Position numbers and translations under genes: made by a program. A stretch of 52,033 bases of DNA from Ectothiorhodospiraceae bacterium (GTDB taxonomy: Bacteria > Pseudomonadota > Gammaproteobacteria > Nitrococcales > Aquisalimonadaceae): the NCBI GenBank assembly GCA_020831885.1, contig JAFIFU010000020.1, positions 1 through 52,033 on the forward strand, written 5' to 3'. Positions 12,364 through 23,694 of the stretch are shown here, piece after piece (position 1 is the first letter of the stretch; each line of letters opens with the position of its first letter). Under the pieces are notes generated by a model, which had not been told where the DNA came from, did not search any database, and worked only from the letters and a program-made list of their open reading frames with translations.

Positions 12364-13401
12364 ATGGTGAGAGCGGCGTTCGAGATCGCGGGGCGGACGA
12401 TCGTGCCGGGGGGACGGGGTACGGTGGATCTGCCCGCAGGACATCTATACACCCATACGCCGCTGACCATACCGCTGCACGTGGTGCACGGCCGTCGCGA
12501 CGGACCCTGCCTGGTGGTTTCCGCCGCCGTGCACGGTGACGAGATCAACGGTGTGGAGATCATCCGCCGGTTGCTTCGGGAGAAGGCCCTGGGAAGGCTG
12601 GCCGGCACCCTGGTGGCGGTGCCCATCGTCAACGTGCTCGGTTTCACCGCCCGGTCCCGGTACCTGCCGGACCGGCGCGACCTCAATCGCTGCTTTCCCG
12701 GTTCGGATACCGGCTCCATGGGCGCGCGGCTGGCGCGCCTGTTCCGCAAACAGGTACTGCAGAAGGCCAGCCACCTGATTGATCTCCATACCGGCGCCGT
12801 CCACCGCGACAACCTGCCGCAGATCCGCGCCGATCTGGACCACGGGGGTGACGAGATACTGGCCCGGGCCTGCGGGCTGCCGGTGATGATCCATTCCCCG
12901 ATCATCGAAGGCAGCCTGCGGGAGGCCGCTCGGGAGCTCGGTGTGGCGGCGGTGACGTATGAAGGCGGTGAGGCGTTGCGCTTTGACGAAGGAGCGATCC
13001 GGGCGGGCCTGCGAGGCGTGCTACGGGCCATGCGGGCCCTGGGCATGCTGCCCGCCAGCCGGGGACGACCCCAGCCCGAGCCGTTCATCGCCGATGCCAC
13101 CCGCTGGGTGCGTGCCGGGCAGGACGGCATTCTCCGCGCCGCGGTGGCTCTGGGGGATCGGGCGGAGACAGGCCAGCCCCTGGGCTGGGTGTCCGATCCC
13201 TTCGGTGAGCGGACCAGCGTGGTGGAGGCGCCCGAGGCGGGTCTGGTGATCGGGCGCACCAATCTCCCCCTGGTGCACCAGGGGGAGGCCCTGTTCCACC
13301 TGGCCCGTTACGAACGTGTCGGTCCGGTGGTGCGGCAGGTGGAACGCTTCAGTCAGGAACTGGAAAATCACCAGGGCTGGGAAGAACCGCCCATCGTTTA
13401 G
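12364..13401 (+). CDS. Succinylglutamate desuccinylase/aspartoacylase family hydrolase
   Basis: 345 aa zinc carboxypeptidase-fold hydrolase. Zinc ligands His57 and Glu60 are in AAVHGDE, and the third ligand His142 is in DLHTG. YEGGE near residue 200 supplies the catalytic Glu. This family removes acyl or amino-acid groups from small molecules. The sequence resembles the stand-alone bacterial group rather than AstE, and no arginine succinyltransferase pathway genes are nearby. The C-terminal 90 residues form a beta-rich, biotinyl-like module (ILRAAVALGDRAETGQPLGWV). I take ATG 12364 because the sequence before it is a G-rich ribosome-binding tract, although an upstream in-frame start exists. 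The substrate is unknown. Confidence 0.8.
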   Translation: MVRAAFEIAGRTIVPGGRGTVDLPAGHLYTHTPLTIPLHVVHGRRDGPCLVVSAAVHGDEINGVEIIRRLLREKALGRLAGTLVAVPIVNVLGFTARSRYLPDRRDLNRCFPGSDTGSMGARLARLFRKQVLQKASHLIDLHTGAVHRDNLPQIRADLDHGGDEILARACGLPVMIHSPIIEGSLREAARELGVAAVTYEGGEALRFDEGAIRAGLRGVLRAMRALGMLPASRGRPQPEPFIADATRWVRAGQDGILRAAVALGDRAETGQPLGWVSDPFGERTSVVEAPEAGLVIGRTNLPLVHQGEALFHLARYERVGPVVRQVERFSQELENHQGWEEPPIV

Positions 13402-13406
13402 GGAAT

Positions 13407-13545
13407 CGATCAGTGCTTCCTTCCGATGATTCTCCTCCGGCAGCCGATGGCCGCATCCATGCGGCCACCCTTCGGGCCGGACGGCGCTCCTGGCGCGGCT
13501 CCGCGAGGAACGCCCAGCCACTCCCACCGCACGTCCCGATCAACC
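13407..13545. mobile_element. Hairpin-rich mini-repeat, possible non-autonomous element
   Basis: This fills most of the 169-base gap between two convergent genes. It opens with CGATCAGTGCTTCC, a motif shared with two other gene ends in the window, and closes with GATCAACC, which matches the opposite-strand end of that motif. Inside are a 20-base inverted repeat with 9-bp arms (TGGCCGCAT/ATGCGGCCA, 13448-13467) and a long imperfect stem (13483-13514) capped by CGCGG/CCGCG. The structure resembles a palindromic repeat or small MITE. No transposase is nearby and the second end is degenerate, so mobility is an inference. It could also serve as the terminator for both flanking genes. Confidence 0.45.
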
Positions 13546-13570
13546 GCGGCCTTCAACACGCGGAATGCCG

Positions 13571-14560
13571 TCAATGGGCCGGCGCCTGCTCCGGTGCCAG
13601 CGGATCCTCTCCCCGGGCCGCGTCGGCCGAGGGCGCGTCGTCGGTCAGGTGCTGGTCCAGCCAGTTGCTCAGGTCCCGGTAGACCTCCTGGCGGTTGATT
13701 TCGTTGAACACCTCGTGGCGCGCCTCCGGGTAACTGATCAGGTTTACCCGGCGGGCGCCGTGCTGCCTGTAGGCCTGCATCAGTGCCCGCACACGCTGGC
13801 CGCCCAGACTCAACAGATCGCCGGTACCCACCAGCATCAGCACCGGCAGATCCGACGGAATGCGACCCCGCAGCCGGTTGCTGATCTCCTCCATGCCCTG
13901 GGCGATGGCATGCCACATGCCGTTACTGGGTTGGAAACCACACAGGGGATCCGCCAGATAGGCGTCGACGATGGATTCATCCCGGCTGATCCAGTCCTGG
14001 TCCGTCCGCCGGTCCGGCAGGGAGCGCTTCATATTGCCGACGCCCAGCGCATAGAGCAGCCGGCTGCGGCGATTCCGCCCCTGCAGCGCCTTGAACAAGG
14101 TGCCGCCCCAGTGGGTGATCCGCGTGCCCAGGCCCGGCCGGCTGTCGGTGGCGGAGAGAATCAGCCCGTCGATGGTCTCGCCGTGAACGGCCGCGTAATG
14201 CTGACACATGAGTGAACCCAGGCTGTGTCCCAGCAGGAAGATGGGGGTGTCCGGATGCCGCTCCCGGGCATGCTGCACCAGCGTGCCGATATCCCGGATC
14301 CAGTCGTCCCAGCCGCTTTCGGCAGGGAGGATGCCCAGACACTCGGGATCGCCGGCGGTGGCACCATGCCCACGCGTGTCGAAAGCGTAGACCTGGAAGC
14401 CGCAGGTGGTCAGGTGGTCGGCCAGTTCGCCGTAGCGTCCGCTATGTTCTCCCAGACCATGCACCAGCACCACGCAGGCCCTGGGCAGTCGGCCGGGTGC
14501 GGTCCAACTGCGGCAATGCAGGGTGAGCCCGTCATGGGCCTTCAGTGTGAATTGTTCCAT
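13571..14560 (-). CDS. Alpha/beta hydrolase, monoacylglycerol-lipase-like
   Basis: 329 aa serine hydrolase. The nucleophile elbow GHSLGS has Ser113, Asp248 lies in VGTGD and His282 in EARHEVFNE, so the triad is complete. The oxyanion region is VHGLGEHSGRY, and FDTRGHG is typical of the monoglyceride lipase/lysophospholipase group (PldB-like). No signal peptide is seen, so it is probably cytoplasmic or membrane-associated. The last 25 residues are a low-complexity acidic/Pro tail. Its first 29 bases overlap the end of the upstream propeller gene, implying one transcript. GGAAGGGAGC precedes the start. The natural substrate is likely a lipid ester, but this is not shown. Confidence 0.82.
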   Translation of the reverse strand: MEQFTLKAHDGLTLHCRSWTAPGRLPRACVVLVHGLGEHSGRYGELADHLTTCGFQVYAFDTRGHGATAGDPECLGILPAESGWDDWIRDIGTLVQHARERHPDTPIFLLGHSLGSLMCQHYAAVHGETIDGLILSATDSRPGLGTRITHWGGTLFKALQGRNRRSRLLYALGVGNMKRSLPDRRTDQDWISRDESIVDAYLADPLCGFQPSNGMWHAIAQGMEEISNRLRGRIPSDLPVLMLVGTGDLLSLGGQRVRALMQAYRQHGARRVNLISYPEARHEVFNEINRQEVYRDLSNWLDQHLTDDAPSADAARGEDPLAPEQAPAH

Positions 14561-15599
14561 GCTCCCTTCCCGTCATCCGGCGCCGTAGCAGGTACAGGGC
14601 CAAGGCGATCAGCAGCAGGCCGACCGCCATCTGCTGGTAGATATGGGGACCGGCCACCCGGTCCAGGCGGTAGGTGGCCCCGGCGCTGATCCAGATCGTA
14701 TCAGCGTAGGGCACCACCCAGCTCACTGGCCTGTCCAGTCCTTCCGGCGGATTGCGCAGTTTTTCCCAGCGACCCTGGGTTTCCAGAGCCCGCTCCCGCT
14801 GCACCAGACGTATCCGGTAGGCACCGTCGTCGCTGCCGGCCCAGAGCATGCCCTCGGCGTCCAGCGCCAGCGCAAGCACCCGTCGCTGGCCCAGGCCCGC
14901 CTCGACACGGCGCCAGGGGCGCCCGTCTGCCCGCCAGAACAGGCCCTGATCCGTTCCGGCCAGCAGGGCGCCGTTGTCAGCTTCCAGCAGGCTGAGGATA
15001 TTCACCGGCCGGGGCAGGCCCTGACTGACCGGTTGCCAGCCATCGGCGGGCCTGTCCATCTCCAGTCGCCAGATGCCGTCGCCGATGGTGCCGGCGTGGA
15101 TGGCCAGACCGGTGGCGGTGTCGCCGGCGTGCAGACGATAGACCTGCGCGTCCAGCCCCAGGTTCCGGAAACCGTCCCCGTCCCAGGCCAGCACGCCGTT
15201 GCCGGTGGCCAGCAGCAGGTAGTGGCCGGCGGTCACCGCATGGCTGACCCGGGTGCCATCCGGCGCCGCCTGCCACATGTCGGTATTCCAGTCCCAGAGT
15301 CCGCCGTTCAACACCGCCAGGTGTCGCTCCGGCAGCAGAGCCATGATCGCGCCCCGGTCCGTTTGGCCAACGCGGTGCCATTCCTGCCCTTCAAGGCGCC
15401 ACAGCGCGCCATTCTGACTGCCGCGGTACAGCCCGTCCTGCCCCTTCGCCAGGGTGAACACGTGTTCGCTGCGATCCGGGTCGTCCATGACCCAGCGCTC
15501 GTGGCTGAACACCCAGGGCGTGGTGGCCAGCACCACCACCCCGAGCATCCCCAGCAGCGCGGAAGGCAACCACATGCGACGGCTGACGGCTGTTTTCAT
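14532..15599 (-). CDS. Doubly anchored periplasmic beta-propeller-like protein of unknown function
   Basis: 355 aa. An N-terminal hydrophobic helix (about 8-28) and a C-terminal helix (about 324-340, followed by RRR) frame a soluble domain of about 290 residues. Repeated blades such as LLAGTDQGLFWRADG, LWAGSDDGAYRI and LATGNGVLAWDGDG look like the BNR/two-component-regulator propeller repeat (G-T-D-x-G-L-W). Orientation by the Arg-rich C-terminal tail puts the propeller in the periplasm. The gene overlaps the hydrolase by 29 bases and is divergent from the small exported-protein operon. I do not recognise a named family. A scaffold or sensor role is inferred from the fold only. Confidence 0.65.
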   Translation of the reverse strand: MKTAVSRRMWLPSALLGMLGVVVLATTPWVFSHERWVMDDPDRSEHVFTLAKGQDGLYRGSQNGALWRLEGQEWHRVGQTDRGAIMALLPERHLAVLNGGLWDWNTDMWQAAPDGTRVSHAVTAGHYLLLATGNGVLAWDGDGFRNLGLDAQVYRLHAGDTATGLAIHAGTIGDGIWRLEMDRPADGWQPVSQGLPRPVNILSLLEADNGALLAGTDQGLFWRADGRPWRRVEAGLGQRRVLALALDAEGMLWAGSDDGAYRIRLVQRERALETQGRWEKLRNPPEGLDRPVSWVVPYADTIWISAGATYRLDRVAGPHIYQQMAVGLLLIALALYLLRRRMTGREHGTIHTEGP

Positions 15600-15640
15600 A
15601 AAAAACCTGAGGTATGATCGCTAAGCTTTCGTCAATAATA

Positions 15641-15668
15641 GTTTTATGCTTCGCATCTGGCCTGTGAA
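15641..15668 (-). promoter_or_regulatory. Candidate promoter for the propeller-hydrolase pair
   Basis: On the minus strand TTCACA (15663-15668) and TAAAAC (15641-15646) are 16 bases apart, giving a start near 15634 and a leader of about 35 bases. This lies in the AT-rich patch (about 15600-15650) that separates the two divergent operons. No equally good forward-strand pair was found for the operon beginning at 15739. Confidence 0.35.
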
Positions 15669-15738
15669 CTGGAACACGGCCCTGGGCCTGTCCGCCCGGT
15701 ATGCTGCGAACACGGATCCATCCCATGGGACCATACGC

Positions 15739-16059
15739 ATGCGAATAAACCCGGCACGCCTTTCCCTGCGCATTGCACTGGCCTGCAGCCTCGTGGCATC
15801 GCCGTTATTGGCGGACGAGGCTGCCCGGGCGTCTGTCCCCTCTGACGATTGTGACACGCTGCGCGCCGTGTATCAGCGGTTGGCCGCTGACGAGGCGGCT
15901 GCCGAGGCCCGGGCGCAACTGGCGAGAACCATCCTGCTGCTGCCGGATTGCGTATCCGGCCAAGGGCGGCTGCAGCGGGCGCGCACCCTGGACGGCGTGG
16001 ACGTGTTCCAGGCGGGGAGGTTGCAGGATCTGTTCCAGGACACGGAGCAGGGGCGATGA
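15739..16059 (+). CDS. Small exported hypothetical protein (first gene of envelope operon)
   Basis: 106 aa. ATG 15739 gives a Sec signal peptide (Arg-rich start, hydrophobic ALACSLVASPLLA, cleavage near ADEAA). The mature part is about 80 residues, mostly alpha-helical and Ala-rich, with two Cys in DDCDTLR and LPDCVSG that could form a periplasmic disulfide. I recognise no family. Its stop overlaps the next start as ATGA (16056-16059), so the two products are probably made in fixed ratio. The Shine-Dalgarno sequence is weak (GGGA). An in-frame start 31 codons earlier would bury the signal peptide and is rejected. Confidence 0.6.
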   Translation: MRINPARLSLRIALACSLVASPLLADEAARASVPSDDCDTLRAVYQRLAADEAAAEARAQLARTILLLPDCVSGQGRLQRARTLDGVDVFQAGRLQDLFQDTEQGR

Positions 16060-16502
16060 AGACCCCGGTGCTGATTTTCCTGATGGCGCTCGCCCCGGCC
16101 GCGTGGGCGGATGGCATGCGCACCCTGGAACCCATCGGGGGCGGGCGGGAAGTGCCGGCGTCCTCCTTGCCCGGGGTGGCGCGGGACGATGTCGAGGATT
16201 TCGTAAACGCGTTGCTGGAGGCGTGGAACGGGCAGGGGCTGGAGCGACTGCTGGCGGAGGATTTCCCGGACCGAAACCGGTTGCTGGGGGATCTGGCCGA
16301 ATTGCCGCCCACTGCCCGGCTGCGCTTGCTGTCCATCGGTCCGGTCCAGACGTTGGAGTCCTCCTGGGAGGAGGACGCCTTGGTCACCCTGCTGTCCGTG
16401 CGGGTGCGCGCCCGGGTGGAACTGGAAGGCGAGGACGGCCCGCGGCGGCACGAGACCACCCAGGAACTGGTGATACGTTTCGTACGGCGTCTGACGGATT
16501 GA
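16056..16502 (+). CDS. Small exported hypothetical protein (second gene of envelope operon)
   Basis: 148 aa. The signal peptide (MKTPVLIFLMALAPAAWA) is followed by a domain of about 125 residues. It has an acidic helical half (DDVEDFVNALLEAWNGQGLERLLAEDFP) and a beta-rich end (ALVTLLSVRVRARVELEG). The shape recalls SnoaL/NTF2-like or DUF4440-like periplasmic folds, where a helix packs on a beta sheet, but I see no diagnostic residue. It starts within the stop of the preceding gene and ends one base before the barrel gene. Co-translation suggests the three proteins work together in the envelope. Confidence 0.6.
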   Translation: MKTPVLIFLMALAPAAWADGMRTLEPIGGGREVPASSLPGVARDDVEDFVNALLEAWNGQGLERLLAEDFPDRNRLLGDLAELPPTARLRLLSIGPVQTLESSWEEDALVTLLSVRVRARVELEGEDGPRRHETTQELVIRFVRRLTD

Positions 16503-16503
16503 C

Positions 16504-18105
16504 ATGAAGGTGGGGCGCTTCCTTAACGGGATGCTGTTGGTGGCGGTCTGCGCAACGGCACAGGCCGAGATCACTGTGTCCGGCGATACCACGCTGCGGT
16601 ACGAGTACTATCAGGTCAGTGGCGACGAGACCCATGCGCCTTACGCCGAAACCGGCGGGCAGTTCTATCAGGATCTCAATCTGCGCATGACGGGCCAGCC
16701 GGAGGCGGGGCGGTACTGGGAGTTCAATGCCTCCGCGGTGCTCAACCGGTCCGACTACCGCCATCCGGACCGGGGTCTGGTGCCGGAGTGGGTGCACCTG
16801 CGCTATGAGGACGGAACCGCTCCGCTTCCCTATCGCCTGGACATGGGTGATCAGATGGCCCGCCTGACGCCGCTGACGCTGAACCAGCGGATCCAGGCCG
16901 CCCGGGTGGAATTGCAACCGCAACGGGAGGGGCCGGCGGGGGGGCGGCATTCCCTGGTCTGGATCTCCGGGCGGGATCGGAGCGACTGGAACAGCCTTGA
17001 TCCGTCCGCTCCGCCACGGTTTCATGACACCGCTTATCACGGCGCATCCTGGTTGCTGGACGGGGTGGGGCCCGGCCGTTACAGCGTCAACGTCCTGCAC
17101 CAGTCCCCCGGCGATCATTCCCCGGATGCAGCGGACGCCCTGATCGCCAGCCTGGCTGCCGCCTGGGACATCCGCTTTGCCCAGCAGCGCCTGGCGGCGG
17201 AGGCCGAGCTGGCGCAGGTGGACGAACGGCATGACGTTCAGACAGCGTCGGATCAGGGTTTGCGAATCGCCGTCTCCGGCGAAGCGGATCGGGCGCCCCT
17301 GGACTATGGCCTGCGCTATCGTCGCTACGGTGACGGGTTTCGCCCGCTGGGTACCGACGTGATGCCGGACTCGCGCCTCATCGGAATTGACGCCGGCCTG
17401 GCCATCCCTTTGGGCATGCATCTCAGCGGCAGCGTGGAGCGGTACACCGACGCGGTGACCCGACGGCGCCTGGAACTGGATGATTACGGGCTGGTGCTGA
17501 GTGCTCCGGACTCTCTGGGCATGCTGGACTGGATGGACCATGAATGGGCCGTGCGGGTCCGCGATCGTGAGAACCGCAGCGGCAGCATCCGCGACCGGGC
17601 CACGGAGGCACGCTGGACCATTCGGGTCGCCGCGGGCGAGCGGTCCGAGACCCGCATGTCCATGCGCTGGCTTGGAACCGATGACGATACGCCGCTTGAC
17701 CGGGACCGGCGCGAGCGCCGCCTGGCCCTCAGCCATCAGGAACGGTTCATGCTGGGTGGGCTGAACGTGAGTGCGGCTCCCGGAGTGGACTACCGGCAAC
17801 GCACGGGCCATCTACCCATGACCCTGCTGCATCCCACCCTACGTCTGGATGCCGGCGTCCAGGCGCACCGGTTCGGCATGCTGCTGGGTTATCGCACACT
17901 GGAGCGCCGGGACCACCTGCTGGATGTGGACGAATACAGCCTGCGACTGGATTATCGCTATCGCCTGCGCAGCCATGTCTTCGGCCTGGAGTTCGACCAG
18001 CAGTTGCGGGAGCCCGAGGACGGAAACAACACGGAATCCTGGCGGGCGGGGATGTTCTGGCGCTATGAGTTCAGCGGCGCGGGCGGCCTGTCCCTGACAC
18101 ACTAG
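16504..18105 (+). CDS. Predicted outer-membrane beta-barrel protein of unknown function
   Basis: 533 aa with a clear signal peptide (cleavage after AQA, before EITVSGDTTLRYEYYQ). The whole mature protein consists of alternating polar/hydrophobic strands rich in aromatic residues (LRYEYYQV, YGLRYRRYG, FGMLLGYRTLERRDH, RLDYRYRL), typical of an outer-membrane barrel. It ends in SGAGGLSLTH rather than a terminal Phe, which is unusual for BamA substrates, although the last strand FWRYEF lies 12-17 residues inside. An internal stretch, LDMGDQMARLTPLTLNQRI, recalls the G-D...L-T-L-x-x-R motif of some large surface barrels. It starts 1 base after the previous stop. No ligand, pore or transport role can be assigned. 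Confidence 0.6.
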   Translation: MKVGRFLNGMLLVAVCATAQAEITVSGDTTLRYEYYQVSGDETHAPYAETGGQFYQDLNLRMTGQPEAGRYWEFNASAVLNRSDYRHPDRGLVPEWVHLRYEDGTAPLPYRLDMGDQMARLTPLTLNQRIQAARVELQPQREGPAGGRHSLVWISGRDRSDWNSLDPSAPPRFHDTAYHGASWLLDGVGPGRYSVNVLHQSPGDHSPDAADALIASLAAAWDIRFAQQRLAAEAELAQVDERHDVQTASDQGLRIAVSGEADRAPLDYGLRYRRYGDGFRPLGTDVMPDSRLIGIDAGLAIPLGMHLSGSVERYTDAVTRRRLELDDYGLVLSAPDSLGMLDWMDHEWAVRVRDRENRSGSIRDRATEARWTIRVAAGERSETRMSMRWLGTDDDTPLDRDRRERRLALSHQERFMLGGLNVSAAPGVDYRQRTGHLPMTLLHPTLRLDAGVQAHRFGMLLGYRTLERRDHLLDVDEYSLRLDYRYRLRSHVFGLEFDQQLREPEDGNNTESWRAGMFWRYEFSGAGGLSLTH

Positions 18106-18788
18106 TCGCGTCCGGCGGCCCGCCAATAGAGGATGAGCGCGAGCCCGAAGAGCATTCCCCCCAGATGGGCGAAATGGGCCACGTTGGCCATGGCGCCGGT
18201 CATGCCGGCCCAGAGCGTGAACGCGCCGTAAGCCACGACGAAGTACTTGGCCTTCATGGGAATGGGCGGAATCAGCAGCATGATGCGCTGGTTGGGAAAG
18301 CACATGCCGAATCCGAGCAGGATGCCGAATACCCCGCCCGAGGCGCCGACGGTGGGATAGGGCATGCCGGTGCGGGCGGCCTGGGTGGCCACGGCCAGTT
18401 GGATCAGGCCGGCACCGACCACGCAGAACAGGTAGTAGAACAGAAAGCGTGCCGAGCCCCAGCGGTACTCCAGGGCCACGCCGAACATCCACAGGGCGAA
18501 CATGTTCACGAACAGGTGCAGCGTCCCGCCGTGCAGAAACCCGTAGGTGAGTGGTTGCCAGACGCGGAAGCCGTCCAGTTCCACGGGGCCCATGGGCGTA
18601 CGCACCACGTCCGGCATGCCCAGCGGCCACAGGGCGAAGTGCTCGATCAGCGGCAACCGCAATCCGGTTTCCAGGAAAAAGATGGCCACGTTGATGGCCA
18701 GCAACGCCATGATCACCGGCGGGAAGGCCGACGGCGGTCGGAGGGGAGTGTAGCCGGGCGGGGGCGACTGGTAGGCATTGGGTGTCAT
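18102..18788 (-). CDS. Rhomboid family intramembrane serine protease
   Basis: 228 aa with about six transmembrane helices. The catalytic Ser is in GASGGVFGILLGF, the catalytic His in NVAHFAHLGGM and the oxyanion His/Asn in HLFVNMFALWMFG, so it should be active. Rhomboids cleave membrane proteins within the bilayer. ATG 18788 is chosen; a TTG two codons earlier is also possible. No Shine-Dalgarno sequence is visible and a candidate promoter ends only about 10 bases upstream, so translation may be leaderless. It is tail-to-tail with the barrel gene: the two stop codons share the palindrome CTAG. Confidence 0.9.
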   Translation of the reverse strand: MTPNAYQSPPPGYTPLRPPSAFPPVIMALLAINVAIFFLETGLRLPLIEHFALWPLGMPDVVRTPMGPVELDGFRVWQPLTYGFLHGGTLHLFVNMFALWMFGVALEYRWGSARFLFYYLFCVVGAGLIQLAVATQAARTGMPYPTVGASGGVFGILLGFGMCFPNQRIMLLIPPIPMKAKYFVVAYGAFTLWAGMTGAMANVAHFAHLGGMLFGLALILYWRAAGRD

Positions 18789-18797
18789 GATCAACCG

Positions 18798-18826
18798 ACT
18801 TTAGACTAGCTGTCTACCTGAGACAA
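18798..18826 (-). promoter_or_regulatory. Candidate promoter close to the rhomboid start
   Basis: TTGTCT (18821-18826) and TAAAGT (18798-18803) are 17 bases apart on the minus strand, each 4 of 6 to consensus. The predicted transcription start would lie within a few bases of ATG 18788, leaving almost no leader. The small dyad TAGAC/GTCTA at 18802-18816 overlaps the spacer. Confidence 0.3.
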
Positions 18827-18831
18827 CGCGG

Positions 18832-18846
18832 GGAGCGCTTCGCTCC
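18832..18846 (-). terminator. Hairpin after the RND efflux operon
   Basis: GGAGCG/CGCTCC with a 3-base loop starts 5 bases past the stop of the RND pump gene. It is compact and GC-rich but lacks a T-tract. Confidence 0.45.
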
Positions 18847-18850
18847 ACCG

Positions 18851-21800
18851 CTATGCCGCCCGGCCGCGCCACTGGCGCAGCCGCAGCACCCCGTTCTCCA
18901 GCAGCGAATAGGCGGCGGGGATCACCACCAGGGTCAGCAGCATGGACGAAATCATGCCGCTGATGATTGCCACCGCCAGTGGTCCCTGGGTTTCCGCGCC
19001 GGCTCCCAGGCCGATGGCCGCCGGCAACATGGCCAGGATCAGCGTCAGCGAGGTCATCAGGATGGGGCGAAGCCGGACCGGGCAGGCCGCCTGCAGTGCC
19101 TCGTTCACGCTCAGGCCGCGTTTCGCCCGGTATTGGTTGGTCAGATCCACCAGGAGAATACCGTTCTTGGTCACCAGGCCGATCAGCAGGACCAGGCCGA
19201 TCATGGAGAAAATATTCAGTGTGTGGTTGAACAACCACAGGCCCACGATGCCGCCCACCATGGCCAGCGGCAGGGCGGCCAGGATCACCACCGGTTGCAG
19301 GAACGAGTTGAACTGGCTCCCCAGCACCATGTAGGCCAGAATGGTGGCCACCACGAACACGAACAGGATGGATGCGGCGGTGCGTTCGAACTCCTCCGCC
19401 TCTCCCACCAGGTTCAGTGTGTACCCCAGGGGCAGCAGGTCCTCGGCCTCCTCTTCCACCACCCGTACCGCCTCCGCCAGCGGTACGGCCGGGTTGGAAT
19501 AGAACTGGGCCGCATACTGCAGGTTGTACCGGCCGATGACCGCCGGCCCCAGGGTGGGCTGGAATCCCGCCAGATTGTCCAGCCGGATCATGTCCCCGTC
19601 GGGGCCGCGCAGAAAAATGCCGCGGAGATCGTCGGCGGATGTGATGGCGCCGTCCACCGCCTTCAGCCGCACGTCGTAGCGCTCACCATCGCCCGGATCA
19701 TCGTTGTACCGGGCCACATCGATGCCACCGGCCAGTACGTTGACCGCACGTGCCACCTCGAATGTGGAAAGTCCCAGGCTGCGGGCGCGGTCCCGGTCCA
19801 CCCGCAGGGTGTACTCGGGTTGGTCCAGGTCCAGGTCCAGATCCAGGGTGGCGATGCGGTCGTCGTTGCGCAATCGTCGTTCCATCTCCTCCGCCAGACG
19901 GGCCACCTCATCCAGATCGGGGCCGCTGATGTTGAACTGCAGCGGCTCGCCGCGCTGACCGCCGATCAGGGGCACCGCGGTGGCGAAGGCGCGCACACCC
20001 GCCACTTCCGCCAGCCGGCCCTGGACCTGACGGGTGATCTGCTGCTGGCTGAGACGGCGTTCGTCCCGCGGTTCCAGGCGTACGAAGGCGATGCCATCAT
20101 TGACTTGCCCCTGTTGGCCCAGGCCGATGGCGGTGAAAAAGCTGCGCACCCCCTCCTGATCGGCGAGGATGTCCTCCACCACCCGCAGTTTTTCCTCGGT
20201 GTAATGGATGCTGGAACCCAGCGGCGTCTGCAGGATGACCAGGAACTGGCCCTCGTCCTCTTCCGGTGCGAACTCGCCGCCCAGTTGCCCCATCAGGCTG
20301 CCCGCCAGTACCGTGACCACGGCCACCAGGCCCAGCGTGGTCCAGCGGAAGCGCAGGGCCTTCGCCAGCAGCCAGCGGTAGCCGCCCTCCATGGCGCGGA
20401 AGCCGTATTCCAGCACGTTGTACACCCGGCCGTGTTGTTTCGGTACGGAGAGAAAGCGGGAACAGAGCATGGGCGTCAGGGTCAGCGCCACCATGCTGGA
20501 GGCCAGCACGCCCAGGGAGACCACCACGGCGAACGATTCGAAGAAGCGGCCGATGATGCCGCCCATGAACAGGACCGGCAGGAAGATGGCCACCAGCGAC
20601 AGCGTGGTGGCGATGATGGCGAAAAACACTTCATTGGACCCGGTAATGGCACCCTCCACCGGGTCCTCAATGCCTTCCTCCCGATGCCGGAAGATGTTTT
20701 CCAGCACCACGATGGCGTCGTCCACCACCACGCCGATCAGCAGAAGCATGGCCAGCATGGTCAGTGCATTCAGGGTATAGCCGAAGAAGAACACCACGGC
20801 CACGATCGCCGACAGCGAGATCGGGATAGACAGCACCACAATCAGCGTGGAGCGGAGGTTCTTCAGAAACAGCCACAGGACCAGCGCCGAGAACAGGATG
20901 CCCAGCCCGATGGTGGTGTACAGCGATTCCACCATCTCGTGAATGAACACGGACTGATCCGAGGCCACGTGCACCTGGATGCCGGGCGGAAGCTGCGGGC
21001 GGATCTCCTCCTCCAGCCGGCGCTGCACTTCCTCGATGATGGCCACGGTGTTGGTGCCGGCCACCTTGACGATGCCCAGTCCCACGGTGGGCTGGCCGTT
21101 GAAGCGGGCCAGCGAGCGGGGATCCTCCAGCCCGTCCACCACATCGGCCACGTCGCGCAGGCGGATGAGCGCGCCGTTGCGGCTCGCCACCACCATGTCC
21201 TCCAGTTCGTGCGGCGTGTGGTATTCCAGGTCCAGCTTGATCAGCCGCTCGCTGTAGTCACTGACCACGAAGCCGCCCGGGAGCTGGAAGTGTTCCACTT
21301 CGAAGGCGTCGATCAGGTCCTGGACGGTGAGGCCGTAGCTGGTCAGCCGCTCCGGATGGATCTCCACCCGGATGTTGCGCTCCAGCCCGCCGCCGATCTG
21401 GACCTCGCCCACCCCGTCGATGTTCTCCAGCCGGGGGCGGATGACGTTGCGGGCGTAGACGCTGAGCTGCTGCAGCGTGCGATCGCCCTGCACGCTGAGC
21501 CACATGATGGCCTGGGCGCCGGTCTCCACTTTCTGGATGATCGGCGCGTCCGCGTCCGGCGGTAACTGCCGCCGGACCTCATTGACCTTCGCCTGTACCT
21601 CGTTGAAGGCCACATCCACGTCCTTGTTCAGATTGAAGGTCACCACCACCAGGGAGACCCCGGGTGCGGACGTGGACTGGATGTTGTCGATGCCGGGAAC
21701 CGTGTTCACGGCCCGTTCCACCACCGAGGTGACCGAGGCATCGATGATCTCCGGATCGGCGCCGGGTTGGGTCACCACCACGGTGACCACCGGAAAGTCG

Positions 21801-21919
21801 ATGTCCGGGATGCGGTCGGTGCCCACCTGCTGGTAACCGATGATGCCGAACATCACCAGAACGGCGCTGAGCATCACCGCTAGCACGTGGCGGCGGATGG
21901 ATATCTCTGGCAGCGTCAT
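18851..21919 (-). CDS. RND-family efflux pump inner-membrane subunit
   Basis: 1022 aa HAE1/AcrB-type proton-driven exporter. It shows the N-terminal LPEISIRRHVLAVMLSAVLVMFGIIGY helix, two large periplasmic loops and 12 predicted TM helices. The TM4 proton-relay pair Asp-Asp lies near residue 400 (VVVDDAIVVLENI), and the relay Lys is in LIGLVTKNGILLVD of TM10. The segment FAPEEDEGQF after TM7 is typical of the family. It follows the adaptor gene by only 7 bases. No outer-membrane TolC-like gene is in the operon, so a channel encoded elsewhere is presumably used. Substrate (drug, solvent, bile-like compound) cannot be read from sequence. Confidence 0.93.
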   Translation of the reverse strand: MTLPEISIRRHVLAVMLSAVLVMFGIIGYQQVGTDRIPDIDFPVVTVVVTQPGADPEIIDASVTSVVERAVNTVPGIDNIQSTSAPGVSLVVVTFNLNKDVDVAFNEVQAKVNEVRRQLPPDADAPIIQKVETGAQAIMWLSVQGDRTLQQLSVYARNVIRPRLENIDGVGEVQIGGGLERNIRVEIHPERLTSYGLTVQDLIDAFEVEHFQLPGGFVVSDYSERLIKLDLEYHTPHELEDMVVASRNGALIRLRDVADVVDGLEDPRSLARFNGQPTVGLGIVKVAGTNTVAIIEEVQRRLEEEIRPQLPPGIQVHVASDQSVFIHEMVESLYTTIGLGILFSALVLWLFLKNLRSTLIVVLSIPISLSAIVAVVFFFGYTLNALTMLAMLLLIGVVVDDAIVVLENIFRHREEGIEDPVEGAITGSNEVFFAIIATTLSLVAIFLPVLFMGGIIGRFFESFAVVVSLGVLASSMVALTLTPMLCSRFLSVPKQHGRVYNVLEYGFRAMEGGYRWLLAKALRFRWTTLGLVAVVTVLAGSLMGQLGGEFAPEEDEGQFLVILQTPLGSSIHYTEEKLRVVEDILADQEGVRSFFTAIGLGQQGQVNDGIAFVRLEPRDERRLSQQQITRQVQGRLAEVAGVRAFATAVPLIGGQRGEPLQFNISGPDLDEVARLAEEMERRLRNDDRIATLDLDLDLDQPEYTLRVDRDRARSLGLSTFEVARAVNVLAGGIDVARYNDDPGDGERYDVRLKAVDGAITSADDLRGIFLRGPDGDMIRLDNLAGFQPTLGPAVIGRYNLQYAAQFYSNPAVPLAEAVRVVEEEAEDLLPLGYTLNLVGEAEEFERTAASILFVFVVATILAYMVLGSQFNSFLQPVVILAALPLAMVGGIVGLWLFNHTLNIFSMIGLVLLIGLVTKNGILLVDLTNQYRAKRGLSVNEALQAACPVRLRPILMTSLTLILAMLPAAIGLGAGAETQGPLAVAIISGMISSMLLTLVVIPAAYSLLENGVLRLRQWRGRAA

Positions 21920-21926
21920 GCTGGAC

Positions 21927-23000
21927 TTACTCCCTGTTCGTGCGGACTTCCGCGCCGTCGGTCAGGAAGCCGGCGCCCTCCACGGCTATGACCTCGCCGC
22001 CATCCAGGCCTTCGAGGATCTCGATGCGGTCACGCTGGCGGACCCCCACCCGCACCGGCCGGGCGTGGGCGACGCCGTTTTCGATGACGTACACCACCTC
22101 ACCCACCGGACGTTGGATCACCGCCTGATTCGGTACCACGATGCTCTCCCGGCTCGCCAGGACCACGTCGGCATTGACGCTGCCGCCCTGACGCCAGCGA
22201 CCGGGGTTTTCCACGTTCACGATGGCTTCCACGGCCCGGCTCGCGCCCATGAGCGCCGGCCGCAGCTCGTTGATGTGTCCCTCCACCTGGCCGTTGCTGG
22301 ACAGGGGGGCGCGCATGCGGACCGCCTGGCCCACCTCCAGCCGGGCCCCGATGGTTTCCGGAAACGGGAGCCGGACCCGCAACAGGTCCTGGCTCACCAG
22401 TCGGAACAGCGGCTGGCCCGGGGAGCTGTAGTCCCCCACCGAGACCATGCGCTCGTCCACCTCCCCATCCACCGGTGCCGTCACCCGGGTGTTGCGCAGA
22501 TCACGTTCCGCATTGCGTACGGCCACACGGGCACCTTCCAACTGCTCGCGCAGGTTTCGGTATTCGGCCTCGGTGGCGTCGAACATGGCCTGGGTCACGA
22601 AACCGTCTGCCAGCAGCTCACGTTGGCGTTCCAGTTCCCGCCGCTGGGAGCTGATCAGTGCCTCCAGGCGCCGTATGTCCGTGCGGGTCGACGCCAGGGC
22701 CAGTTCATAGGGTTCCGGATCGATCTCCAGCAACAACTGCCCCCGTTCCACCCGGTCGCCCTCGTCCGCGTGTATGGCAACGATGTGCCCGGCCACTTCG
22801 GCGGTCAACGAGGGTGCGGTGCGGGAGCTGATCTGTCCGATGGTCCGCTCCACGACTTCCACGGTGTCGGATTCCGCAGGAACGGTGGTGATCAGGGTGC
22901 GGCGGTCCGGCGCGGGCGCCGTCTCGCCGCCATTGTCACCGCAGGCGGCCAGCAGCAGCGGCAGGATCAGGGCGAGGGTGAGTCGGAAGCATGTACGCAT
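21927..23000 (-). CDS. RND efflux periplasmic adaptor lipoprotein
   Basis: 357 aa membrane-fusion protein. A lipoprotein signal ends in L-A-A-C, followed by DNGGE. It shows the split biotinyl-lipoyl domain (VAGHIVAIHADEGDRVERGQLLLEID and later NTRVTAPVDGEVDERMVSVGDYSSPG), an alpha-hairpin coiled coil between them and the C-terminal beta-barrel. It joins the RND pump to an outer-membrane channel. A second ATG 5 codons upstream (23015) is also possible. The one at 23000 places the Arg directly after Met in the signal peptide. Confidence 0.92.
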   Translation of the reverse strand: MRTCFRLTLALILPLLLAACGDNGGETAPAPDRRTLITTVPAESDTVEVVERTIGQISSRTAPSLTAEVAGHIVAIHADEGDRVERGQLLLEIDPEPYELALASTRTDIRRLEALISSQRRELERQRELLADGFVTQAMFDATEAEYRNLREQLEGARVAVRNAERDLRNTRVTAPVDGEVDERMVSVGDYSSPGQPLFRLVSQDLLRVRLPFPETIGARLEVGQAVRMRAPLSSNGQVEGHINELRPALMGASRAVEAIVNVENPGRWRQGGSVNADVVLASRESIVVPNQAVIQRPVGEVVYVIENGVAHARPVRVGVRQRDRIEILEGLDGGEVIAVEGAGFLTDGAEVRTNRE

Positions 23001-23034
23001 GGTGCTTGATCCCATCCTTGAGAATTCTCCGGGT

Positions 23035-23694
23035 TCAGCGGGTCAGATGTCGTTGAGCGTCATGGCCGTTGTCCACCGCCGGCGTGATCAGGTGCATCAG
23101 CGAGCGGATAAAGGCTTCCGGCTCCACCGGGTTTCCGTCCTGGCCCAGCTCGGCAAGGATGCCCTGTAACTGGAAGAACATGAAGTTCGCTCCGATGATG
23201 GCCAGTGTCAGCGCCAGCGGATCGGTTTCCGTCGGCAGCTCGCCGTCCGCCTTGAGTTGCTCCAGCAAGTGGAGCAGGTTTTTCAGGCTGTCCGAGACCA
23301 CTTGCTCCGCGGTGCGCCGCTGGGCGGTCCGCTGGGGCGTGATCAACTGCCGCAGAAACAGGTAAACGCAGTGCGGATCGCCGAGTTGCTCCTGCAAGTC
23401 CAGCAGTGCGAAGCGGGCGATCCGGTCCCGTACGCTGTGGCGGGTGTCCCGGAGCACCTCCAGTTTGGTGATCAGCTTCTCCGCGGTGTCGTGGAGGTTG
23501 GCCTCGTACAGGTTTGCCTTGTTGCCGAAGTGGTGGAAGACGTTGGCCTTGCTGACACGAGCCTTTTCCGCGATATCACGGATCGAAACGCCGTCATAGC
23601 CGCGTTCGGCAAACAGGATCTTGGACGCCTCCAGAATGCGCCGGGCCGCCTCGGTGCGCGGCTCCGCGGACTGGGTAGAGCTTTGCTGCTGCAT
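23035..23694 (-). CDS. TetR-family repressor of the RND operon
   Basis: 219 aa. The N-terminal HTH (about 18-64) has the usual RRILEASKILFAERGYDGVSIRDIAEKARVSKANVFHHFGNKANLY layout in pieces. The C-terminal ligand-binding helices show no assignable ligand. It is the first gene of a three-gene unit, 34 bases ahead of the adaptor, and so would repress itself together with the pump. The divergent neighbour is a VOC/GNAT pair. The role as local repressor is inferred from position and is common for this arrangement. Confidence 0.88.
   Translation of the reverse strand: MQQQSSTQSAEPRTEAARRILEASKILFAERGYDGVSIRDIAEKARVSKANVFHHFGNKANLYEANLHDTAEKLITKLEVLRDTRHSVRDRIARFALLDLQEQLGDPHCVYLFLRQLITPQRTAQRRTAEQVVSDSLKNLLHLLEQLKADGELPTETDPLALTLAIIGANFMFFQLQGILAELGQDGNPVEPEAFIRSLMHLITPAVDNGHDAQRHLTR

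Follow-up and report, generated by a model that had tools for sequence, protein, structure and literature searches.

The window is the whole analysed stretch of 52,033 nucleotides (contig JAFIFU010000020.1) from an Ectothiorhodospiraceae bacterium. It contains six closely spaced genes, here called A to F. Three of them encode a small exported protein (C), an exported protein taken as NTF2-like (D) and a predicted outer-membrane beta-barrel (E). Together C, D and E make up an outer-membrane set that had not been named before and that recurs in distantly related bacteria. D and E are paired, a short motif (referred to as NPFD) is shared by C and by unlike proteins in the same position, C is fused to D in two genomes, and one clear swap of N-terminal parts was found. 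Structure models provided the folds of D and E. E may act as an outer-membrane conduit, with D as its periplasmic adaptor, in the export or anchoring of NPFD proteins (probability approximately 0.5). Docking through the motif, passage through E and a surface location would each form part of this role. The novelty lies in the C-D-E module and its distribution and not in the six-gene cluster. Loci and genomes are referred to below by L and G numbers.

The C-D-E genes and the predicted folds of E and D

All three genes are on the plus strand, C at 15739 to 16059, D at 16056 to 16502 and E at 16504 to 18105. C and D overlap by 4 bases (ATGA) and D and E are separated by one base. The start codon of C was picked by eye and its N-terminus is signal-like. 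The signal peptides of C, D and E were read by eye from short N-termini, and in a 19-residue hydropathy scan of the three proteins C alone reached the threshold of 1.5. The window's genome had one match each for E and D. C and D had no reliable match in Pfam, and none of the six proteins matched NCBIfam over the curated cut-offs.

E is 533 amino acids in length. The AlphaFold2 model was based on an alignment of 14 E sequences from the order only (A1), which also served for the class search. The model had a mean pLDDT of 87.7 and a pTM of 0.77, and 26 strands were present between residues 22 and 524. The outer-membrane barrel proposed in the original prediction was thus supported by a confident model. 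The first strand was at residues 22-40 and the longest stretch between strands (158-176) was 19 residues. The top PDB match by Foldseek was MtrB (6r2q chain B, E-value 2.5e-9), which also has 26 strands. VIA-align superposed residues 22-523 of E on this chain with a Z of 17.5 over 429 residues (rmsd 6.4, 10% identity). Among the VIA-align matches listed, MtrB aligned the most residues and its Z was tied with those of AlgE and the ushers. AlgE had the same Z with about 304-314 residues aligned, and the ushers FimD and PapC aligned along the full length of the barrel (Z 15.8-17.3, 379-402 residues, rmsd 4.9-6.3). One wide barrel is the natural reading of the model and two barrels, as in GfcD, are unlikely. 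The window E scored 20.7 bits against the Pfam family Porin_4, under the cut-off of 27. When 13 members of a broader E alignment (A4) were compared with Pfam at an E-value of at most 1, Porin_4 was matched by 4 (best 9.3e-9) and the other matches were weak and single. No sequence relative of E was found in the PDB at an E-value of at most 1 and no match in NCBIfam. At L103:2390-5326 E is fused behind SPOR domains in a protein of 978 amino acids.

The D model (AlphaFold2, alignment A2) had a pLDDT of 81.1. It consists of two helices (43-60 and 73-81) and three long antiparallel strands (88-105, 108-125 and 128-145). VIA-align against the PDB gave Z values of 8.9-10.3 among the matches listed, which were mostly NTF2-like chains, and the top match had a Z of 10.3 over 96 residues at 2.4 Å. 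Foldseek gave no match at an E-value of at most 0.001. With helices modelled on a curved sheet D was taken as NTF2-like, and folds beyond those listed by VIA-align may also fit. The D sequence had only chance matches in the PDB (YfeA, 1.2 and 1.3), and 22 D sequences compared with Pfam gave weak matches at most. Judged by sequence, neither E nor D fits a specific Pfam, NCBIfam or PDB family. D contains no cysteine and is therefore not a lipoprotein.

Distribution of the set and the NPFD motif

Of 369 genomes of the class, 11 were matched by the E profile A1; 8 of the 11 lie outside the order, including one weak match (G197). The broader profile A4 matched 7 of 299 genomes in the phylum, two of them weakly, and 11 of 375 in a second sample of the class, one weakly. 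The weak matches (G217, G484) are included in these counts, and many of the genomes were the same as before. No new locus came from further A4 searches around G297 (order, 1/4), G068 (1/1) and G192 (1/1) and in the class of G562 (3/78, one weak). According to record labels, relatives of E were present in metagenome-assembled genomes (MAGs) of Ectothiorhodospiraceae (L086 and L092, 63-65% identity), in Aquisalimonas, Methylonatrum kenyense and Alkalilimnicola ehrlichii, and in MAGs labelled Azoarcus and Lysobacteraceae. Aquisalimonas lutea and Alkalilimnicola ehrlichii (L088 and L090, the contigs of L046 and L047) have all three genes C, D and E.

Of the 27 loci holding both D and E, 25 have D immediately upstream of E. 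The other two, L082 and L104, have D on the 3' side of E, and an NPFD protein is encoded between the two genes. All 7 genomes with a strong E match outside the order had a D close to E, the E profile having been built from the order alone. The D profile (A5) matched 10 of 369 class genomes, nine of which were E genomes and the tenth (G078) a weak match. Rows from 8 of the 9 class genomes having both D and E are contained in A5, so the D matches in these 8 are by construction and only G408 is independent. The association of D with E (Fisher 3e-17) leans on the absence of D elsewhere, and the weak matches in G197 (E, 5.0e-4) and G078 (D, 8.6e-4) were counted as negative. The small C was present in all 14 D and E loci of the Ectothiorhodospiraceae-type group. 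Ten of these supplied the profile, which leaves L041, L042, L047 and L049 as independent cases. Neither C nor D was found in L052 and L053, where the match to E starts at position 119 of the 535 in the profile and the first strands are lost.

C has a Cys-x(32)-Cys segment (Cys38...Cys71), which is probably a helical hairpin, followed by a motif resembling G-x-N-P-[FWY]-D. An alignment of ten small C proteins (A6) had three invariant columns, the two cysteines and the glycine of the motif. The homologues end in GMNPFD, GVNPWD, GVDPFD, GVNPFD, GVDFFD and similar forms. The site in the window (LDGVDVF, within LDGVDVFQAG) is a degenerate form common to L039 and L040, and L041, L042 and L084 are degenerate too. 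C and D are encoded as one open frame in L041, which is cut at the contig start, and in L042.

Outside the Ectothiorhodospiraceae-type group the position of C was occupied in most loci examined by large, probably exported proteins with the NPFD motif. These were called exported from the N-terminal sequence by eye and several of the starts are uncertain. The large proteins beside D carry GNNPYD, GNNPFD, GTNPFD and GFNPLD. A strict pattern, GxNP[FWYL][DNSA], was defined after most of the companions had been seen. It was present in 10 of 23 companion rows compared to 0 of 328 background proteins, and a looser form in 12 of 23 compared to 6 of 328. L047 was left out of the 23 rows and the L049 row was at wrong coordinates; GVDFFD and GVNFFN are present there. 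A six-frame scan of the window and 38 loci (722,103 residues, L062 and L063 left out) covered stop-to-stop open reading frames (ORFs) of at least 60 residues. The strict motif was found in 15 of the 4,827 ORFs and all 15 were companions of D or E. These included the previously unexamined companions of L077 and L104, the former being a relative of the L115 companion (58% over 293 residues). Among the D loci outside the small-C group the strict motif was nearby in 11 of 14. When the small-C profile was run over the scanned ORFs, the first other match was the L078 companion (whole-sequence E-value 4.8e-4), and the companions of L077 (0.057) and L104 (2.5) came next with chance matches interspersed. 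A profile named NPFD-beta (A8) matched 2 of 363 genomes, both of them training genomes, with no further genome and no match in the window's genome.

The companions were split at the motif and the N- and C-terminal parts were compared separately. The N-terminal parts of the large companions vary, being made up of tandem repeats of 15-20 residues or of coiled coils bounded by cysteines. The companions of L080 and L104 have a common C-terminal domain (32% over 154 residues, E-value 2.9e-14) and their N-terminal parts had no match at 0.05. The front of the L080 protein is coiled-coil-like and that of L104 has short loose repeats (automatic repeat score 0.32). The companions of L081 and L130 are alike in both parts. 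Over three periods the repeat identity was 0.98 in L081 (period 20), 0.84 in L102 (period 19) and 0.84 in L130 (period 15). In L103 a 20-residue repeat with 0.92 identity is found in a motif-less protein near E which is cut by the contig end. A FecR-domain protein is encoded between E and the NPFD protein at L104:6011-7123. L130:7645-10049 contains the second D of genome G053. There is no E close to this D, and the two proteins after it look exported, one of them having repeats and GTNPFD.

Possible roles of the set

In the proposed mechanism E would be the outer-membrane conduit, a wide 26-strand barrel, and D a periplasmic NTF2-like adaptor or chaperone of E. C would be an exported protein which docks through a motif of the G-x-N-P-F-D type. 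E and D would take NPFD proteins in the periplasm and then export them or anchor them at the surface. In the window, either the small C or a protein encoded elsewhere would serve as cargo. The presence of a short motif in otherwise unlike, probably exported proteins, nearly always beside the same barrel and periplasmic protein, together with their swappable fronts, favors export or anchoring. A more specific form is offered tentatively. Here the set would be an undescribed export or assembly system in which E and the NTF2-like D recognize the NPFD docking motif and bring swappable passengers, either repeat-rich or Cys-bounded coiled coils, to the surface, the window holding a minimal form.

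A number of observations weigh against export or anchoring. The mature C of the window's genus has only about 80 residues and a degenerate motif (GVDVF), which could make it a plug instead of a passenger. Comparison of C with three large proteins by hhalign gave a probability of only 15.6, and the 27 columns that it aligned correspond to the motif region. The motif is absent from L083, L116 has a loose motif only, in a divergent ORF, and the form in L081 is looser (AIDPFD). The gene that carries the strict motif in L079 follows E, and the gene preceding D lacks it. A D with no E close by was seen once (L130, from the genome that also contains L051). E lacks a D partner in L061, where E is short, in L052 and L053, where its start is missing, and in L054 and L103, at contig ends. 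In other lineages E is longer, mostly about 713-750 residues according to gene calls, and its additional C-terminal part is absent from the window E. The E relative of L079 also exceeds the cut-off of the generic Porin_4 family (34.0 bits compared to 27).

The main alternative is a closed pore complex similar to LptDE or MtrAB. C and D would plug or gate a wide barrel through which a lipid, a polymer or some small molecule moves, with the large NPFD proteins as lineage-specific extensions of the plug. A 26-strand barrel probably needs a plug, C and D are small and form one frame in two genomes, and MtrB, the best Foldseek match of E, encloses its partner MtrA (PMC8805035). LptD is likewise 26-stranded (PMC11494523). 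However, near-identical tandem repeats and exchanged N-terminal parts resemble passengers and not plugs. Cargo is also the better fit for the pair of Cys-rich companions in L079 and for the two exported proteins that follow D in L130. A closed pore was judged possible and less likely than export or anchoring.

The export or anchoring role was compared with known systems. E resembles MtrB/PioB of MtrCAB (6r2q chain B) as a wide barrel of 26 strands, with equal strand number. It differs in being only 10% identical and in having no match to an MtrB-type Pfam family. No CXXCH and no cytochrome were found among A to F, the relatives and the rest of the window not having been systematically scanned. 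A haem conduit was rejected as there is no CXXCH in A to F. The chaperone-usher systems (FimD/PapC) likewise pair a wide barrel with a periplasmic partner and include surface proteins. In contrast to the ushers E has no N-terminal or plug domain, its first strand being at 22-40 and its longest gap 19 residues, and D is NTF2-like and not a chaperone of the Ig type; no other chaperone gene was sought. LptD/LptE is similar in having a 26-strand barrel and a small partner. E differs from LptD in that it lacks an N-terminal periplasmic domain, since its first strand begins at residue 22, and D differs from LptE in not being a lipoprotein. GfcD of group 4 capsule has 12 and 13 strands in one chain, forming two barrels with a periplasmic domain between them (PMC11494523). 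E is similar in strand number and as a single chain, whereas its model is uninterrupted and superposes on single barrels along its length.

It is improbable that E is an ordinary general porin, with D and C as unrelated small exported proteins held in place by operon inertia. The Porin_4 matches in 4 of the 13 members, of which L079 is over the curated cut-off, agree with a porin. However, D and E are paired across families and in another class despite different surroundings, C is fused to D, and the motif is common to C and unlike companions. A mobile element was also rejected. There was no plasmid match to the E of L078 at 1e-3 and no relative of B in plasmids. No relative was found in viral contigs, searched with a single protein for close relatives only, and PHROGs gave no match for B to E at 0.01. 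A literature search that reached few subscription journals found nothing on an "NPFD motif", no such set of NTF2-like protein and outer-membrane barrel as far as titles and the start of abstracts go, and nothing on outer-membrane protein operons in Aquisalimonas.

Neighboring genes A, B and F

A (13571 to 14560, minus strand) encodes an alpha/beta hydrolase of the Hydrolase_4 family (PF12146, 180.5 bits) with a GHSLG motif. B (14532 to 15599, minus strand) encodes a membrane-anchored propeller of the Reg_prop type (PF07494, 22.2 bits compared to a cut-off of 20.4; PDB profile match 3ott). It has one hydrophobic segment at each end, at residues 14-32 and 320-338. F (18102 to 18788, minus strand) encodes a rhomboid protease (PF01694, 96.1 bits compared to a cut-off of 22.6) with GASG and HxxH motifs. 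It did not reach the cut-off for Rhombosortase (TIGR03902, 28.8 bits compared to 84). A and B overlap by 29 bases, and the tail-to-tail overlap of E and F is 4 bases. The divergent region between B and C (15600 to 15738) is 139 bases long. A scan of 13300-18900 for sigma-70-type promoters gave 2 sites, neither of which was inside this gap. The number of genes, their spacing and strands, and the fold-level identities of A, B and F were all as originally predicted.

B and E were counted in 54 genomes of the order from profile matches at an E-value of at most 0.001. E was present in 18, B in 16 and both in 9, one of the B matches (G039) being weak. The two genes were adjacent and divergent in 9 of the 9 genomes having both, all of which belong to the window's own family. 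E occurred without B anywhere in the genome in 9 of the 54, and B without E in 6 (7 counting the weak match). The association was weak (Fisher p = 0.02, uncorrected for phylogeny, G039 (B, 9.2e-4) counted as negative). The stretches fetched for L084 and for the loci outside the order showed no B. The co-occurrence of propeller and barrel proposed as a check on the original prediction was therefore confined to one family, and B and E were often apart.

Neighborhoods were read by tblastn and gene calling on fetched stretches. The block has the order OpdA, glutathione-reductase-like, DUF1328-like, AstE-like, B, C-D-E, F and an RND pump with its adaptor, the names of the genes other than A to F being presumed from sequence. 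The whole block was present in 6 of the 9 loci having B and E (window, L039, L040, L042, L043 and L044) and was partial in L052 and L053; the L045 contig was too short to judge. In the window the genes at 18851-23694, beside F, are syntenic across the family and are presumably the RND pump, its adaptor and a TetR-like gene. A precedes B only in the window's genus (window, L039 and L040). Relatives of A with 44% identity are found in L049 and L050 about 3-5 kb from E and without B. A 787-amino acid protein at L049:9688-12051 joins a P-type ATPase to a C-terminal hemerythrin domain. L046 has no B, and B is kept without C-D-E in G015 (L055) and G014 (L056). In L055 C-D-E is gone and B and F are still side by side, and L052 and L053 have kept B and F. 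The tail-to-tail arrangement of E and F was limited to the window, L039 and L040; in L041-L046 and L052-L054 F lies downstream of E on the same strand. As members of the block come and go, the closeness of the genes here is mostly synteny of the block.

B was found in other contexts in L057-L060, where Pfam searches covered at least one member of each pair of loci. A conserved run of a PLD-domain gene, a FAD-linked oxidase, the B relative and an MlaA lipoprotein gene is present at L058:3704-8551 and L059:4645-9496. B is beside a redoxin-glutaredoxin gene in L057 and L060. At L057:5771-6313 the redoxin and glutaredoxin domains are in one protein, encoded convergently with the B relative. A protein encoded at 1064-1729 of the window, 13 kb from B on the same contig, clusters with the MlaA proteins of L058 and L059. 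The propeller is possibly linked to phospholipid handling, which would be a story of its own apart from the module.

A, B, C, D, E and F acting jointly in lipid or surface handling, as originally predicted, is very improbable: the tight spacing, the adjacency of B and E in all 9 genomes with both and the hint of a lipid link for B in L058 and L059 are set against the absence of E from 6 genomes with B (7 if the weak match is counted) and E without B in 9 of 54, A beside B in the genus only, and F and B outlasting the loss of C-D-E (L055). This machine was rejected as A, B and F are separable from C-D-E, and they are mostly mere neighbors of it. Of the uncharacterized envelope set the outer-membrane operon C-D-E stood and the wider machine did not.

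The tight six-gene cluster in the window is thus shown to be mostly synteny. The C-D-E module gives a common frame to two uncharacterized families, E with a generic porin match only and D with no reliable sequence match in Pfam, NCBIfam or the PDB. Should E and D indeed export or anchor these proteins, the cargo of an unrecognized outer-membrane export route could be predicted from a short motif and found by sequence, and the route could be tested in one or two laboratory-grown bacteria.

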